This document shows, piece after piece, positions 49,142-55,055 of a stretch of 64,000 bases of DNA; positions within the stretch are counted from its first letter, which is position 1; every line of letters starts with the position of its first letter. The position numbers were made by a program, and so were the translations under genes. Source of the stretch: an uncultured Acidobacteriia bacterium (GTDB lineage: Bacteria > Acidobacteriota > Terriglobia > Bryobacterales > Bryobacteraceae). The stretch is from NCBI GenBank assembly GCA_903875575.1, contig CAIQWJ010000024.1, positions 62,001-126,000 of the forward strand, written 5' to 3'. Under the pieces are notes generated by a model. That model was not told where the DNA came from, did not search any database, and saw only the letters and a list, made by a program, of their open reading frames with translations.

Positions 49142-50062
49142 ATGTCAATGGTCGTCGTTGGTTCCGTCGCATACGACGGAGTCGAAACTCCTCACGGAAA
49201 AATTGATCGCATGCTGGGCGGCTCCTGTACTTACGTCGCGCTTTCCGCCAGCTTTTTCACCGCCCCCAAGATCGTAGCCGTCGTCGGCGATGATTTCGCT
49301 CCGGAGGATTCCGAACTGCTCGCCAGTCGCGGCATCGATCTTTCCGGTCTGGAGCGCGTCCCCGGCAAGACCTTTTTCTGGGCGGGCAAATACTCCCCGG
49401 ATATGAACGATCGCGAGACGCTGGTCACTGACCTGAACGTCTTTGCCGACTTCAACCCCAAGCTTCCCGATTCCTACAAGAACGCGCCCTACGTGCTGCT
49501 CGGCAACATCCAACCCGCGCTCCAGAAATCCGTGCGCGCCCAAATGGATGGCTCGCAGCGCATTGTCGGCGGCGACACCATGAACTACTGGATCGCCGAC
49601 TTCCGCGAGCAGTTGCTCGCCACCATCGCCGAATGGGATTTCCTGCTCATTAACGATGGCGAAGCCCGCATGCTCTCCGGCGAATACAATCTCAAAAAAG
49701 CCGCCGCCAAGATCCTCGAAATGGGTCCGAGCACGCTCGTGATCAAGCGCGGCGAATACGGTGCCATCCTGTGGCGTCGTGATGGCCACTTCATGGCCCC
49801 CGGCTACCTGTTGCGCGACGTATTCGATCCCACTGGCGCGGGCGATTGTTTCGCTGGCGGCTTCATGGGCTACCTGGCAGGTCAGGGCATCGACTTCCGC
49901 GCCGACCGCGTGGACCACAACGAAATCCGACGCGCCGTGATCTATGGCTCCGTCATGGGTAGCTACTGCTGCGAGCGCTTCGGCGTCGAAAGGTTCCGCA
50001 CGCTCACGCGCGCTGAGATTGATGGCCGTTTCGAAGAATTCCAGGAATTCACGGCGTTCTGA
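49142..50062 (+). CDS. PfkB family carbohydrate kinase
   Basis: 306 residues of the ribokinase fold. The N-terminal VVVGSVAYDGVETPHGKIDR and MLGGSCTYVALSASFF contain the substrate-binding Gly region. The ATP-site/catalytic motif is DVFDPTGAGDCFAGGFMGYL with the base Asp at about residue 238. It phosphorylates a sugar or nucleoside; the exact substrate (fructose, ribose, adenosine) is not clear, and closest in style are the adenosine-kinase-like acidobacterial members. The downstream membrane glycosyltransferase probably overlaps its end. Confidence 0.9.
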   Translation: MSMVVVGSVAYDGVETPHGKIDRMLGGSCTYVALSASFFTAPKIVAVVGDDFAPEDSELLASRGIDLSGLERVPGKTFFWAGKYSPDMNDRETLVTDLNVFADFNPKLPDSYKNAPYVLLGNIQPALQKSVRAQMDGSQRIVGGDTMNYWIADFREQLLATIAEWDFLLINDGEARMLSGEYNLKKAAAKILEMGPSTLVIKRGEYGAILWRRDGHFMAPGYLLRDVFDPTGAGDCFAGGFMGYLAGQGIDFRADRVDHNEIRRAVIYGSVMGSYCCERFGVERFRTLTRAEIDGRFEEFQEFTAF

Positions 50063-51620
50063 TCGCCCGGCGAGATCCCGCAACCTTGCGCAGATCCTCG
50101 CCGTGCCGATTTGCGCTCTCGTTTGTGCCATCGTCATGGCCGGCGCGGCGCGTTACTTCTATACTTCCGGCGTCACGCTTTGGTACGGCGATGCCGAAGC
50201 GCACCTGAACATCGCTCGCCGCATCATTGATTCGCGCACGCCCGGCTGGTCACAGATTGGCAGCACCTGGCTTCCCCTGCCTCATCTGCTCATGCTGCCG
50301 TTCGTTCGTTATGACAGCCTGTGGCAGAACGGGCTGGCTGGAGCGATACCGGCGGCCATCGCGATGGCGCTGGCCGGCACATTTCTGTTCGCCGCCATGC
50401 GACGCATTTTCGATAGCGCACTCGCCGCGTCGGCAGCTACGGCAGCATTCCTGCTCAATCCGAACACTCTCTACCTCGGGTCCATCCCGATGACCGAACC
50501 TTTCTTCTTCGCGTCACTGTTCGCCCTGCTCTACTTCACGGTTCGCTTTGGGCAGACCAAAGGCTGGGGTTCTGTGATCGGGGCCGGAATCGCGGCCTGC
50601 TGCGCGGCCCTCACCCGCTATGAGGGCTGGTTTCTCATCCCGTTCGCAGCGGCGTTCATCCTGGTTGCCGGTCGCCGGGTCGTCCCGCGCATCTCGGCCA
50701 CCGTTCTCTTCTCCCTGCTCGCCGCCATAGGCCCGGCGATCTGGCTGGCGCACAACCGCTTCTGGTTCACTGACCCGCTCTATTTCTATCGCGGCCCGTG
50801 GTCCGCTGCCGCCATTCAGGGCAAAGCCTGGTACCCCGGGCAGAACGACTGGCGCATGTCAGTCCACTATTTCATCGAAGCCGGTAAGCTCCTGGCTGGG
50901 CTGCCCGCCCTTTGTATCGCCGCCGCCGGAGCGATCGTCGCGCTGGCCGAACGGAAGCGGATCGGCCGCACCGCCTGGCCCGTCATCCTGCTGGCCCTCG
51001 CACCCGCGTTCTACATCTGGAGCATTCACTCTTCCTCCACACCGATCTTCCTGCCTACGCTCTGGCCGCACAGTTTCTACAACACGCGGTACGCCATGGC
51101 ATGGCTCCCGCTTGTCGCGCTTGGCGCAGCCGCTATTGCACGTTTCGGACGCATCCCTGCCATTGCAGCCCTGTTGGTCGTCTTTTCCACGTTCCTGTTG
51201 CACCCGACCGACCACGCCATCACGTGGCAGGAATCCGACGTCAACTCCCGCGCCCGCCGCGAGTGGATCCAGCAGGCCGCCACGTGGCTCAAACCGCGCA
51301 TGGGCCGCGACGAAACCATCCTCACCAGCTTCAACGATATGACCGCGCTCTACCGCACGCTCGGCATCCCGCTGCGCCGCACGCTCACCGGCGATAATGA
51401 TGTGGAATTCGCTATGGCCATGCGCAACCCCAGGGTGTTCCTGCATACCGACTGGGCCATTGCCATCGGTGGAGACGAGATCCAGACCGTCATCGACCGC
51501 GCCCGTCGCGAAGGCCCCCGTTACGAATTGAAATTCCGCGCCACCGTCAAAGGCGAACCCGCACTCGAGATCTACAAACGTGTCGACGAACTGCCGATAC
51601 TCCCCCCAATAGCCCAATGA
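50022..51620 (+). CDS. Membrane glycosyltransferase-like protein (GT39/ArnT-type)
   Basis: About 532 residues from ATG 50022; GTG 50103 and ATG 50136 are alternatives that avoid the overlap with the kinase gene. There are about ten membrane helices. The first loop contains WYGDAEAHLNIARRIIDS, where the Asp-Glu pair matches the catalytic-loop acid of GT-C glycosyltransferases, then WLPLPHLLMLPFV. A soluble-looking C-terminal part from about 425 follows. GT-C enzymes use lipid-linked sugars to glycosylate proteins or lipids at the outer face of the membrane. The stop overlaps the next gene's start by 4 bp. Confidence 0.75.
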   Translation: MAVSKNSRNSRRSDRPARSRNLAQILAVPICALVCAIVMAGAARYFYTSGVTLWYGDAEAHLNIARRIIDSRTPGWSQIGSTWLPLPHLLMLPFVRYDSLWQNGLAGAIPAAIAMALAGTFLFAAMRRIFDSALAASAATAAFLLNPNTLYLGSIPMTEPFFFASLFALLYFTVRFGQTKGWGSVIGAGIAACCAALTRYEGWFLIPFAAAFILVAGRRVVPRISATVLFSLLAAIGPAIWLAHNRFWFTDPLYFYRGPWSAAAIQGKAWYPGQNDWRMSVHYFIEAGKLLAGLPALCIAAAGAIVALAERKRIGRTAWPVILLALAPAFYIWSIHSSSTPIFLPTLWPHSFYNTRYAMAWLPLVALGAAAIARFGRIPAIAALLVVFSTFLLHPTDHAITWQESDVNSRARREWIQQAATWLKPRMGRDETILTSFNDMTALYRTLGIPLRRTLTGDNDVEFAMAMRNPRVFLHTDWAIAIGGDEIQTVIDRARREGPRYELKFRATVKGEPALEIYKRVDELPILPPIAQ

Positions 51621-52414
51621 AGATCCCTTTCTACAAACTGCACGGCGATAAGAACGACTTCCTGCTCACGTATCAGGAAGACGCGCCCACGAAACTGCTC
51701 GAAGAAGCCGCCGTTGCCATCTGCGACCGCTACACCGGCGTGGGTGCCGATGGCTGGATGCTGGTTGACCGCACCCCGGGCGACGGCTTCGATGCCTCCA
51801 TACGGCTCTTTAACTCCGATGGCAGCGAACCCGAACTCTCCGGCAACGGCACCCGGTGCGCCGGCGCGCTCCTTGCAAGCGTGTCCCCTGATCAGAAGGA
51901 GTTCCGCATCCGCACCGGTGCCGGGATCAAACACCTCCGCTTGCTCTCGGTGACCGGAACCCATTACGAATTTGAGATGAACATGGGCAGCCCTCGCGTG
52001 GTGGAACTCCATGCCACTGTACAGGGCCGCGACGCCGTCATTGTCGACGCAGGCAACCCCCAGTGCGCCATGCCGGTTACCGATTTTGATTTCGACTGGC
52101 TCGCCGTGGGCGCGGCTACCGAGCGCGATCCGCGCTTCTCCAATCGCACCAATGTCTCTTTCATCCGTCCCTTGGACGCCAACACCATTGAAGTACGTTT
52201 CTGGGAGCGCGGCGCGGGCCAGACCAACAGTTCCGGCACGGGCTCAACCGGTGCCGTGGCCGCGGCCCTTGCCAGAGATATGGTGGTGGATCCGGTGACG
52301 GTCCGAACCCCCGCTGGTATATTGAAATTGCGTCGCGAAAGCACCAGTTTGTTGCTGACGGGGCCAGCGGAATTGACCGCGGAGGGATTTTATTACTCGT
52401 CTATCCATGCTTGA
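51617..52414 (+). CDS. dapF: Diaminopimelate epimerase homologue with both catalytic cysteines replaced by serine
   Basis: 265 residues with the two-domain DapF fold. Substrate-binding residues match the family: Asn in HGDKNDF, FNSDGSEPE, GNPQ (Asn147), RTNVSF and the Glu-Arg pair in WERGAGQT. However, the first catalytic position (Cys in NxDGSxxxxCGNG) is Ser75 (ELSGNG) and the second (TxACGxG) is Ser206 (TNSSGTG); both codons are TCC. The His of GNPH is Gln. The usual reaction is LL- to meso-diaminopimelate for lysine and peptidoglycan. It may be a serine variant, a different isomerase, or poorly active. It is coupled to its neighbours by short overlaps. Confidence 0.85.
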   Translation: MKIPFYKLHGDKNDFLLTYQEDAPTKLLEEAAVAICDRYTGVGADGWMLVDRTPGDGFDASIRLFNSDGSEPELSGNGTRCAGALLASVSPDQKEFRIRTGAGIKHLRLLSVTGTHYEFEMNMGSPRVVELHATVQGRDAVIVDAGNPQCAMPVTDFDFDWLAVGAATERDPRFSNRTNVSFIRPLDANTIEVRFWERGAGQTNSSGTGSTGAVAAALARDMVVDPVTVRTPAGILKLRRESTSLLLTGPAELTAEGFYYSSIHA

Positions 52415-53759
52415 TAAGAAAGGACCAGCGGCGGTGTCATCCGCAGCCGGGCCTGAAACGGAGACCTGGAAGCAGTTAGCTGACAAGATCCGGTCCAAAA
52501 CGGCAAAAGTCGGGGTAGTCGGCCTCGGTTACGTTGGCCTGCCGCTGGCTGTCGAATATGCCGCGGAGGGCTACCACGTCACGGGAATCGACCTCAACAG
52601 CGGCAAGACCGACAAAGTGAATGCCGGTGATTCTTACATTGGCGACATTCCCACCGCCACCCTGGCTCCGCTGGTGAAGGCCGGCCTGCTGACGGCCACC
52701 ACCGATTTCTCGGTGGTCCGCGAACTCGATACCATCAATATCTGCGTCCCGACGCCGCTCCGGAAGACCAAAGACCCGGATATGAGCTACATCGTCGATT
52801 CCTGCGAGGAAATTGCGAAGTACTTTCACCCGGGCATGCTGATCATCCTGGAATCCACCACCTATCCCGGCACCACCGACGAACTGGTTCGCCCCATTCT
52901 CGAAAAGAGCGGCCTCAAAGCCGGCGTGGATTTCTTCCTCTGCTTCTCGCCGGAACGCGTCGACCCCGGCAACGCCAAGTTCCAGACCAAGAACATTCCG
53001 AAAGTGGTCGGCGGCTACACTCCGGCCTGCACCGAGATGGGCCGTCTGTTCTACCAGCAGGCCCTCGAAAATGTGGTGCCGGTCGGTTCCACCCAGGTGG
53101 CCGAAATGGTCAAGCTGCTGGAGAACACTTTCCGCATGATCAACATCGGCCTGGTCAACGAAATCGCTGTCATGTGCGACAGCATGGGGATCAACGTCTG
53201 GGAGGTGATCGACGCGGCCGCCACCAAACCCTTCGGTTTTATGCCTTTTTATCCGGGCCCCGGCCTCGGCGGCCACTGCATTCCGATCGACCCCTTCTAC
53301 CTCTCCTGGAAGACCAAGCAGTCCGGCATTGAAGCCCGTTTCATCGAACTGGCCGGCTATATCAACGGCAACATGCCCCACTTCGTGGTCGACAAGGTAC
53401 AAAACGCCTTGAACGACGTTTCGAAGCCCATAAAGGGCTCCCGCATTCACATCCTGGGCGTGGCCTACAAGCGGGATATCGACGATGTCCGCGAATCTCC
53501 GGCGCTCGACATCATCCATCTGCTGCTCCAGCGGGGTGCGACCATTTCGTACTCCGACCCCTATGTGCCCTCCATCAAGATTGAAGGCGGCACGTTGAAG
53601 GCTGGCGGCGAAACGGAACTCACCGAAGCCGATTGCGTCCTCATCGTGACGGATCATAAAGCCTTTGACTATTCCACGTTGCCCTCCCGGGCCAAACTGG
53701 TCGTAGACACCCGGAACGCGCTGAAGGGCATCACCGCCCCGAACGTAGTCCGTTTGTAA
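52407..53759 (+). CDS. Nucleotide-sugar dehydrogenase (UDP-GlcNAc/ManNAc 6-dehydrogenase type)
   Basis: 450 residues. The N-terminal Rossmann domain begins VGVVGLGYVGLPLAVEYAAE at about 35-54. The catalytic region has the Cys in GPGLGGHCIPIDPFYLSWK (C291) with Lys in VAEMVKLLENTFRM, and a C-terminal UDP-binding domain (ILGVAYKRDIDDVRESPALD). The VP(T)PLRKTKDPDMSYI loop is that of WbpA/WecC-like enzymes, which make uronic forms of N-acetylhexosamines for polysaccharide. The start overlaps dapF by 8 bp. The gene lies with a glycosyltransferase gene, fitting envelope-sugar synthesis. Confidence 0.93.
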   Translation: MLDKKGPAAVSSAAGPETETWKQLADKIRSKTAKVGVVGLGYVGLPLAVEYAAEGYHVTGIDLNSGKTDKVNAGDSYIGDIPTATLAPLVKAGLLTATTDFSVVRELDTINICVPTPLRKTKDPDMSYIVDSCEEIAKYFHPGMLIILESTTYPGTTDELVRPILEKSGLKAGVDFFLCFSPERVDPGNAKFQTKNIPKVVGGYTPACTEMGRLFYQQALENVVPVGSTQVAEMVKLLENTFRMINIGLVNEIAVMCDSMGINVWEVIDAAATKPFGFMPFYPGPGLGGHCIPIDPFYLSWKTKQSGIEARFIELAGYINGNMPHFVVDKVQNALNDVSKPIKGSRIHILGVAYKRDIDDVRESPALDIIHLLLQRGATISYSDPYVPSIKIEGGTLKAGGETELTEADCVLIVTDHKAFDYSTLPSRAKLVVDTRNALKGITAPNVVRL

Positions 53760-53846: not shown

Positions 53847-55055
53847 ATGCTGACAGGTCGCCAGTTTCTCACGTCCGCCGCATTGCTAGCCGTTTCAGCC
53901 GCCGTCTGTTCCGCGCAAAGCATCGCGCCGGCACATTCCGGTACGGTCCATTATTTTGAAGGCGATGTCTCGGTCGATGGCACGAAGCTTGTGTCTCAGG
54001 TCGCACGGTTTACCTCTCTCAAGGAGCAGAGCGTGCTCCAGACCGGCCTCGGTCGGGCGGAGATTCTGCTGACCCCCGGCGTCCTCCTCCGCGTCGGCGA
54101 AAATTCCTCCGTCAAGATGCTGGATAATCGCCTGCTCAGCACGCGGATCGAGTTCCTCTCTGGCAGCGCCATGCTGGAATCGGACGACAACAGCAGCATG
54201 GTGAAAGATCCGGCCGTGACCATCGTCTATAAGGATTTCTCGGCACAACCGATGCGCACTGGTCTCTTCGAGATCCGCTCGGAACCCGAGCAGCTCCGCG
54301 TGTTTAAGGGCGAAGCGAAAGTTTTCGCCGCAGGCAGTTCCATGAACGTGAAGGATGGCAACCAGGTGGAACTCTCCACCACGCTTGCAACCTCAAAGTT
54401 CGATACGAAGGAAGGCGACGAGTTGTACCTGTGGTCGCGCGACCGCTCCGCTTATCTCTCGGCTGGTAACATGGCTTCCGCGCGCACTCTGGCGTCGAAC
54501 GGCTTCGCAAACTCGAACGGCCAGGGCTATGGAGCTGGCTGGAATCCGGGTATGTGGCGTGGCTTTAGCGGCGGCTGGTACTACAATTCGTACCTTGGCA
54601 TGTATTCTTACCTGCCGTTCGCCGGTACGATCTATAGTCCGTTTGGTTTTGGCTTCTATAATCCGTTGACCATCGCCGATGTCTACTATCCGGGCTACGG
54701 CTATAACTGGTCTGGCGCCGGCGGTGCCCGTACCGCGACCACGACGAGCGTACCGCTCACCTCGCTCTCTGCTTCCGGCACGTCGGTCCGTCCGTCCCTT
54801 CCACGTCTGGGCACGACGGCTACTTTGAACTCCGGCTTCACGGCGACGCCCGGTAATGCAACAGGCCCGCTGACGGCGCGGAGCGCGTTTAACAATAATA
54901 ATTCCTTCAACAACATCCTGACGCCGTCTTCGAATACGAATGTGGGCATGCCAGTCGCGAACAATGCGGTCTCTCCCATGGCTGCTGCTCCTGCTGCCGC
55001 CGCACCTGCCGCAGCGGCCGCCAGTGCACCGCGCGCAACTGCCGGGCGCCGTTAA
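53847..55055 (+). CDS. Exported FecR-domain protein
   Basis: 402 residues with a signal peptide ending VCSAQ. Residues about 28-190 form a FecR-like beta domain: GTVHYFEGDVSVDGTKLVSQ, LQTGLGRAEILLTPGVLLRV and LRVFKGEAKVFAAGSSMNVK. A middle Trp/Tyr/Gly-rich region (residues 228-290, WRGFSGGWYYNSYLGMYSYL) and a Ser/Thr/Ala-rich tail follow. FecR modules bind regulators or carry ligand-sensing roles; this protein has no transmembrane helix, so it is periplasmic or secreted. It is typical of acidobacterial genomes and is followed at 93 bp by tRNA-Ser. Confidence 0.85.
   Translation: MLTGRQFLTSAALLAVSAAVCSAQSIAPAHSGTVHYFEGDVSVDGTKLVSQVARFTSLKEQSVLQTGLGRAEILLTPGVLLRVGENSSVKMLDNRLLSTRIEFLSGSAMLESDDNSSMVKDPAVTIVYKDFSAQPMRTGLFEIRSEPEQLRVFKGEAKVFAAGSSMNVKDGNQVELSTTLATSKFDTKEGDELYLWSRDRSAYLSAGNMASARTLASNGFANSNGQGYGAGWNPGMWRGFSGGWYYNSYLGMYSYLPFAGTIYSPFGFGFYNPLTIADVYYPGYGYNWSGAGGARTATTTSVPLTSLSASGTSVRPSLPRLGTTATLNSGFTATPGNATGPLTARSAFNNNNSFNNILTPSSNTNVGMPVANNAVSPMAAAPAAAAPAAAAASAPRATAGRR

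Follow-up and report, generated by a model that had tools for sequence, protein, structure and literature searches.

Can a diaminopimelate (DAP) epimerase work without its two catalytic cysteines? The question is raised by a dapF homologue in a 64,000-nucleotide stretch of an uncultured Acidobacteriia bacterium of the Bryobacteraceae (contig CAIQWJ010000024.1, positions 62,001 to 126,000; the whole stretch is hereafter the window). The gene (51617..52414, + strand, as are all features given below) encodes 265 amino acids, and its product is a putative serine-type DAP epimerase, as judged from the translation of its open reading frame (ORF), profile matches, an AlphaFold model and a structure search. 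A thiol-thiolate pair of cysteines is the accepted account of how cofactor-free racemases take a proton of pKa about 29 (PMC12039745; here and below, papers are cited from extracts of their text). A preliminary description of the locus had reported that both cysteines are replaced, and the reading of the codons and the alignment agree: the two acid/base positions are held by Ser75 (TCC, 51839..51841, motif ELSGNG) and Ser206 (TCC, 52232..52234, motif TNSSGTG), the latter preceded by Ser205 (AGT, 52229..52231, from the DNA and the alignment of DapF rows). The other observations made there also hold. In sequence and alignment the canonical His149 is Gln in the motif GNPQ (residues 146-149, 52052..52063), in which Asn147 is kept; the substrate-binding Asn, Glu and Arg residues (Asn13, Asn66, Asn147, Asn179, Glu197 and Arg198) are all present; and the operon is tight, with both neighbouring ORFs overlapping the ends of dapF. 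A DapF with serine at both sites (Ser-Ser; other pairs are named likewise) is surprising because Cys-to-Ser mutants of family members (PddB, M. tuberculosis DapF and HisR) are nearly inactive.

The protein was assigned to DapF by both sequence and structure. It scored 175 bits against TIGR00652, the DapF model (cut-off 114.65), and 129.5 bits against PF01678 (cut-off 34.7), showing that profile-based annotation still scores a Ser-Ser protein as DapF despite the lost cysteines; against NF038284, the model of the bifunctional DapF/glutamate racemase, it reached 55.5 bits, under the cut-off of 350. The AlphaFold model, built from a 96-row alignment, had a mean predicted local distance difference test score (pLDDT) of 97.3 and a predicted template modelling score (pTM) of 0.93. 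Its top structural match in a comparison with the PDB was Anabaena DapF (9mro; template modelling score 0.88, 33% identity). In the alignment with this protein ELSGNG pairs with EMCGNG and TNSSGTG with TLACGTG; as had been proposed, Ser75 and Ser206 fall on the catalytic cysteines of solved DapF sequences. Helices are predicted at residues 76-89 and 207-219, which would place each serine immediately before a helix, and the catalytic cysteines of DapF sit directly before helices (PMC12039745). Two other families for which a comparison had been suggested, PhzF and the proline racemases, were rejected. Neither had a match in Pfam or NCBIfam; PhzF-type structures rank 27 and lower, with 11-16% identity, and the first proline racemase structure ranks 31, with 10% identity, the Foldseek matches of proline racemase fold as a whole being 10-16% identical to the window model.

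We then compared 292 DapF rows readable at both sites, a chosen rather than random set that includes the window and E. coli and in which some genomes appear twice; 278 of these rows are distinct over residues 60-214, and another ten could not be read and were left out. Sites 75 and 206 hold only Cys or Ser, with 224 rows Ser-Ser, 57 Cys-Cys, 10 Ser-Cys and 1 Cys-Ser. Among the 115 Ser-Ser rows that had not been chosen via a TCN pattern (see below), Ser75 is encoded by TCN in 108 and by AGC in 7, while Ser206 is encoded by TCN in 207 and by AGY in 16 of 223 Ser-Ser rows. The finding of the same serine pair in 224 of 292 rows, from many unrelated assemblies and at least two phyla, rules out a chance mutation, and it leaves virtually no room for a sequencing error, a pseudogene or a decayed copy in one genome, as do the intact ORF, the kept DAP-contact residues and the high pLDDT of the window protein. 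The six substrate-binding residues named above are kept in 210-211 of the 211 distinct Ser-Ser rows; for Asn13 and Glu197 we presume a role in the DAP pocket. Two other positions vary with the catalytic pair. Residue 205 is Ser in 185/211 distinct Ser-Ser rows vs Ala in 51/57 Cys-Cys rows. At position 149, 115 of the former have Gln and 92 have His; the latter all have His (57/57). In Anabaena DapF, Asn66, Asn164, Asn197 and Arg216, the equivalents of DAP-pocket residues, contact DAP (PMC12039745).

A separate observation concerns a group of acidobacterial Cys-Cys DapFs (L066, L091, L096, L107 and others) that have GVPH in place of GNPH, with Val in 22 of 24 rows, and have thus lost the conserved DAP-contact Asn. 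Three rows of this group reached 123-154 bits with the DapF/glutamate racemase model, more than any other row scored against it and far under 350. Chlamydial DapF seems to lose the same Asn (V145; PMC5885031).

The conserved serines could be bystanders. On this explanation the protein does epimerise DAP, but the proton is moved by a different residue, by water or by a bound cofactor. Serine is a poor base for the alpha proton of an amino acid; it has a higher pKa than the thiol and is more difficult to desolvate (PMC8142540). The glutamate racemase activity of chlamydial DapF is reported to require pyridoxal phosphate (PLP; PMC5885031). Moreover, each of the two Ser-Ser groups has its own set of charged residues: Lys/Arg105 occurs in 96% of acidobacterial Ser-Ser rows vs 8% of Cys-Cys rows, and Glu81, Glu6 and Asp232 in 82-84% of the Ser-Ser rows of the Thermoleophilia set vs 0-19%. 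However, no new charged residue common to both Ser-Ser groups was found. Cys36, invariant in a first alignment of 27 Ser-Ser rows and considered as a substitute catalytic cysteine, proved to be as frequent in Cys-Cys rows. The two sites are also always Ser or Cys, which non-catalytic positions would not require. We therefore regard catalysis by something other than the serines as quite improbable.

The two-serine state is not an oddity of one genome but an old and widespread lineage trait. In the analyses of the window's order, of its phylum and of the class of Patulibacter, the loci read were best-scoring matches and hand picks, not random samples. Within the order, a DapF match was present in 191 of 200 genomes (over the cut-off in 185; two matches in 5 of the 191) and absent from 9. 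Fifty loci were read from 49 of these genomes (30 best-scoring and 20 picks), giving 49 Ser-Ser and 1 Cys-Cys; each of the 49 genomes carries a Ser-Ser DapF. One genome of the window's family (G164) has both a Cys-Cys DapF of the GVPH type (L003) and a Ser-Ser DapF (L133), on sequences with GC of 0.647 and 0.678; the pair stems from contamination, listed as 4% for this genome, or from gene transfer. Two other genomes of this family, listed as 96% and 98% complete (G078 and G132), had no DapF match, through either a gap in the assembly or a real loss of the gene. In the phylum as a whole a match was found in 280 of 297 genomes, and the 70 loci read (30 best-scoring and 40 picks) comprised 46 Ser-Ser, 23 Cys-Cys and 1 Cys-Ser. 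The last of these (L109), from another acidobacterial family, is the sole row in which the first Cys is kept and the second is Ser.

Ser-Ser DapFs were also found outside this phylum. A degenerate pattern, DGS-x-E-x-E-[hydrophobic]-Ser(TCN)-GNG, run on 84,980 species genomes gave at least 120 matching stretches; it fixes TCN at site 75 and says nothing on frequency or on absence from other phyla. All of the 120 matches listed are DapF, with 108 Ser-Ser, 4 Ser-Cys and 8 that end before the second site. By title, the 108 Ser-Ser among the matches listed belong to Acidobacteriota (48), Actinomycetota (40) and Aminicenantota (1), and 19 have no phylum rank, 14 of these being titled Aminicenantes, which we take to belong to Acidobacteriota in GTDB, and 5 plain "bacterium". 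The 40 actinobacterial sequences in this list comprise 30 from Thermoleophilia, 9 without class and 1 labelled Actinomycetes, and include Patulibacter americanus DSM 16676 and a metagenome-assembled genome (MAG) of Conexibacter. The 4 listed Ser-Cys matches are titled Chloroflexi, Christensenellaceae, actinobacterium and Bifidobacterium; the Bifidobacterium one is a MAG, and its label may be wrong. DapF matches were present in 91 of 99 genomes of the class to which Patulibacter belongs; among 50 loci read there, 31 were Cys-Cys, 12 were Ser-Ser, 5 were Ser-Cys and 2 could not be read. Ser-Ser DapF is common in Acidobacteriota and in Thermoleophilia (Actinomycetota). The Christensenellaceae-labelled genome (G520) has two DapFs, one Ser-Cys and the other Cys-Cys (L229, L272), as well as a DAP dehydrogenase that passes the cut-off. 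A search of viral contigs with the window protein found no relative.

The trees suggest that the serine pair arose more than once. An 89-row DapF tree was built with the two catalytic columns removed. In it, 50 Ser-Ser rows from Acidobacteriota cluster together (support 98 in the Shimodaira-Hasegawa-like approximate likelihood ratio test, SH-aLRT), adjoining a group of 14 rows, of which 13 are Cys-Cys and 1 is Cys-Ser. A separate 15-row group (SH-aLRT 100) contains six Ser-Ser rows from Thermoleophilia along with Cys-Cys and Ser-Cys ones. Three further Ser-Ser rows, two acidobacterial (L071, L089) and one actinobacterial (L193), belong to neither the large acidobacterial group nor the Thermoleophilia one and sit at the unresolved base. 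In a 35-row tree, three changes are forced on the starred branches, and Ser-Ser formed one clade in 0 of 200 bootstrap trees; against a repeated origin, the approximately unbiased test of a single Ser-Ser clade gave p = 0.058 for these 35 rows, so that one origin is not formally rejected. From these sequences a repeated origin, with Thermoleophilia apparently separate from Acidobacteriota, is likely, though not formally proven; the trees give no direction of the change between Cys and Ser. For a co-change of residues 205, 84, 149, 74, 181, 195 and 119 with the serine pair, the starred branches offer 2 independent pairs, too few for significance, and residue 181 had no clear direction of co-change.

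The genomes were also examined for the rest of the pathway and for a second enzyme. The host genome (5,978,723 bases, 98.4% complete) has a single DapF locus. No second DapF, Cys-Cys forms included, was found in it, the two Pfam half-domains detected both being the window ORF, and the idea of a second dapF with two cysteines was dropped. The genome has lysA (499.5 bits, cut-off 297.9) and a MurE over the DAP-ligase model NF001126 (542.3 bits, cut-off 373). This MurE carries the DNPR motif, which we take to mark MurE of the meso-DAP type and which was also present in 8/8 further MurE loci of the window's genus. In 31 relatives, the window genome included, no DAP dehydrogenase was found over the cut-off; weak matches occur in 8 of the 31, the best with 25.5 bits vs a cut-off of 180.6. 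As to the actinobacterial carriers, meso-DAP is described as diagnostic for all members of Solirubrobacterales (PMC3035278) and was reported in a new Solirubrobacter (PMC10722151).

The gene neighbourhood in relatives points in the same direction. The product of dapL makes LL-DAP. In the set labelled Thermoleophilia/Actinomycetota, the order miaA-dapF-dapL was seen with Cys-Cys, Ser-Cys and Ser-Ser DapF: among loci with enough sequence, DapL is directly downstream in 25/25 Cys-Cys, 5/5 Ser-Cys and 26/35 Ser-Ser loci, and MiaA is upstream in 23/23, 5/5 and 26/35, respectively. Because this order holds for every catalytic pair, the Ser-Ser protein usually stands in the place of the Cys-Cys enzyme, beside the maker of its substrate. 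A representative DapL (L181) passes NF006756 (549.9 vs 507) and fails TIGR03540 (531.8 vs 593.25). The five Ser-Cys DapFs in this slot (L297, L300, L301, L303 and L306), all of the class Thermoleophilia, are natural single-site forms. In loci labelled Acidobacteriales, an S66 LD-carboxypeptidase is the next gene in 13/17 and Mpl the second in 11/15 with a called gene, the representative Mpl being over its cut-off. Both families act on meso-DAP peptides. The preliminary description had considered that the protein might have another substrate; this is disfavoured, as the DAP-contact residues are kept and the neighbours in two groups of relatives act on DAP or DAP peptides.

Alternatively, another enzyme may make meso-DAP, with the Ser-Ser protein being a DAP-binding non-enzyme or acting on another substrate, e.g., as a dehydratase or regulator. 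Such a role would be in keeping with the near inactivity of Cys-to-Ser mutants in the family and with the existence of a Ser-Thr dehydratase of proline racemase fold (PMC4113996); RppH, moreover, is a binding partner of E. coli DapF (RppH-DapF PDB entries). Against it stand the Ser-Ser DapFs of Thermoleophilia in the Cys-Cys operon slot beside dapL and the kept DAP-contact residues. In addition, 20/20 titled Ser-Ser genomes have exactly one DapF match and 0/20 have a DAP dehydrogenase over the cut-off, though some show weak matches and the absences are themselves weak, as most of these genomes are MAGs without stated completeness. With none over the cut-off in the 31 relatives either, meso-DAP dehydrogenase was rejected as the known bypass. 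Of the earlier proposal that the precursor comes from a different enzyme, the part that concerns this dehydrogenase has therefore not stood, whereas another, non-homologous enzyme would still fit. We consider it unlikely that the Ser-Ser protein has such a role and leaves meso-DAP to another enzyme.

Taken together, the evidence makes the window gene probably the DAP epimerase of the cell, with the usual fold and DAP pocket and with Ser75 and Ser206 at the acid/base positions. Its homology, conservation and genomic context are firm, whereas its activity, DAP as its substrate and proton transfer by the serines themselves are inferred. As for the mechanism, we lean towards a Ser-Ser pair that, without Cys, PLP or metal, performs the 1,1-proton transfer at an unactivated alpha carbon, on which much of Acidobacteriota and Thermoleophilia depends for peptidoglycan and lysine, and which evolved two or more times from the Cys-Cys enzyme, possibly by way of Ser-Cys forms. 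The enzyme would convert LL-DAP to meso-DAP for MurE and LysA. Its domains would close around DAP, expelling water; one serine oxygen, poised by the helix N-terminus and backbone amides, would take the alpha proton, and the opposite serine hydroxyl would supply a proton. The changes from Ala205 to Ser and, in about half of the rows, from His149 to Gln may aid the serine pair, although this is a guess. The suggestion that serine can replace cysteine is favoured by the conserved subfamily, the probable repeated origin, the Ser-Cys forms, the dapL slot, the kept DAP contacts and the lack of a second DapF.

Several points weigh against this interpretation. Cys-to-Ser mutants of PddB have <0.1% activity, with similar results cited for M. 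tuberculosis DapF (PMC8225329), and the C67S and C209S mutants of HisR have greatly reduced activity (PMC11602996); the poor basicity of serine noted above belongs here as well. Because such laboratory mutants are nearly inactive, a natural Ser-Ser enzyme must compensate. No assay of an enzyme with Ser at both sites was found in the literature searched. In the host genome the aminotransferase candidates for the step that forms LL-DAP are under the DapL cut-offs; even the best one (C15) fails each DapL model to which it has a match. Nine of the 35 Ser-Ser loci in the Thermoleophilia set, including one from Patulibacter (L150), have no adjoining DapL match; in the rest of the Ser-Ser loci, acidobacterial and other, S66 is next in only 27/135, Mpl is present in 17/62 and DapL in 3/135; and in the window's order dapF adjoins no lysine or DAP gene in annotated loci. 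Finally, a non-homologous epimerase of a new type would fit the genomes equally well.

Known enzymes resemble the Ser-Ser form in part. Cys-Cys DapF (TIGR00652; 9mro, 3ejx and 1gqz) has the same fold, length, DAP-contact residues and pre-helix catalytic pair, and in Thermoleophilia it occupies the same operon slot; unlike it, the Ser-Ser form has both Cys changed to Ser, Ala205 usually changed to Ser and His149 changed to Gln in about half of the rows. The natural Ser-Cys 4-hydroxyproline 2-epimerase, which is active and has a related two-domain racemase fold of the proline racemase type, likewise has Ser at the first acid/base site, but at this site only and in another family with another substrate (PMC4113996). 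The Ser-Thr trans-3-hydroxyproline dehydratase (4k7g) also lacks Cys at either site, with Ser as the proposed base, but it catalyzes dehydration rather than epimerisation, and its Thr is described in a non-catalytic orientation (PMC4113996). Such Ser-Cys and Ser-Thr types are listed in PMC4364671. In DapF itself, a Cys-to-Ser change hinders catalysis and helps crystallisation (PMC12039745). The H. influenzae DapF mutants C73S (2q9h) and C217S (2q9j) have Ser at one site at a time and are engineered single changes in a Cys-Cys background, whereas the two changes in the window are natural and conserved. A literature search limited to open-licence papers found no report of a Ser-Ser DapF, and a search there on the peptidoglycan chemistry of Acidobacteriota likewise gave no paper.

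If the serine pair is indeed catalytic, many soil bacteria would make an essential precursor of the cell wall and of lysine with an enzyme without the two supposedly indispensable cysteines. The conserved two-serine form in single-copy genes indicates either that serine can do the work of cysteine in a suitable pocket or that a further enzyme of the pathway awaits discovery. A serine-type DapF might also be insensitive to thiol-directed inhibitors such as aziridino-DAP.

In the window itself, dapF is preceded by a membrane glycosyltransferase-like gene with a PMT_2 domain (50103..51620, ORF call and Pfam), which overlaps it by 4 bases and whose 5′ end is uncertain, the frame being open from 49944. 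Upstream of this is a PfkB-family kinase (49142..50062, Pfam). A nucleotide-sugar dehydrogenase (52407..53759, ORF call and Pfam), whose start overlaps the other end of dapF, follows downstream. PfkB kinase, membrane protein and nucleotide-sugar dehydrogenase are the neighbours in Bryobacterales, the window included, with PfkB two genes upstream of dapF in 11/21 loci with a called gene there; these genes are uninformative on DAP. A 402-amino-acid ORF 3′ of the operon (53847-55055) has no Pfam match, and its start resembles an export signal by eye.

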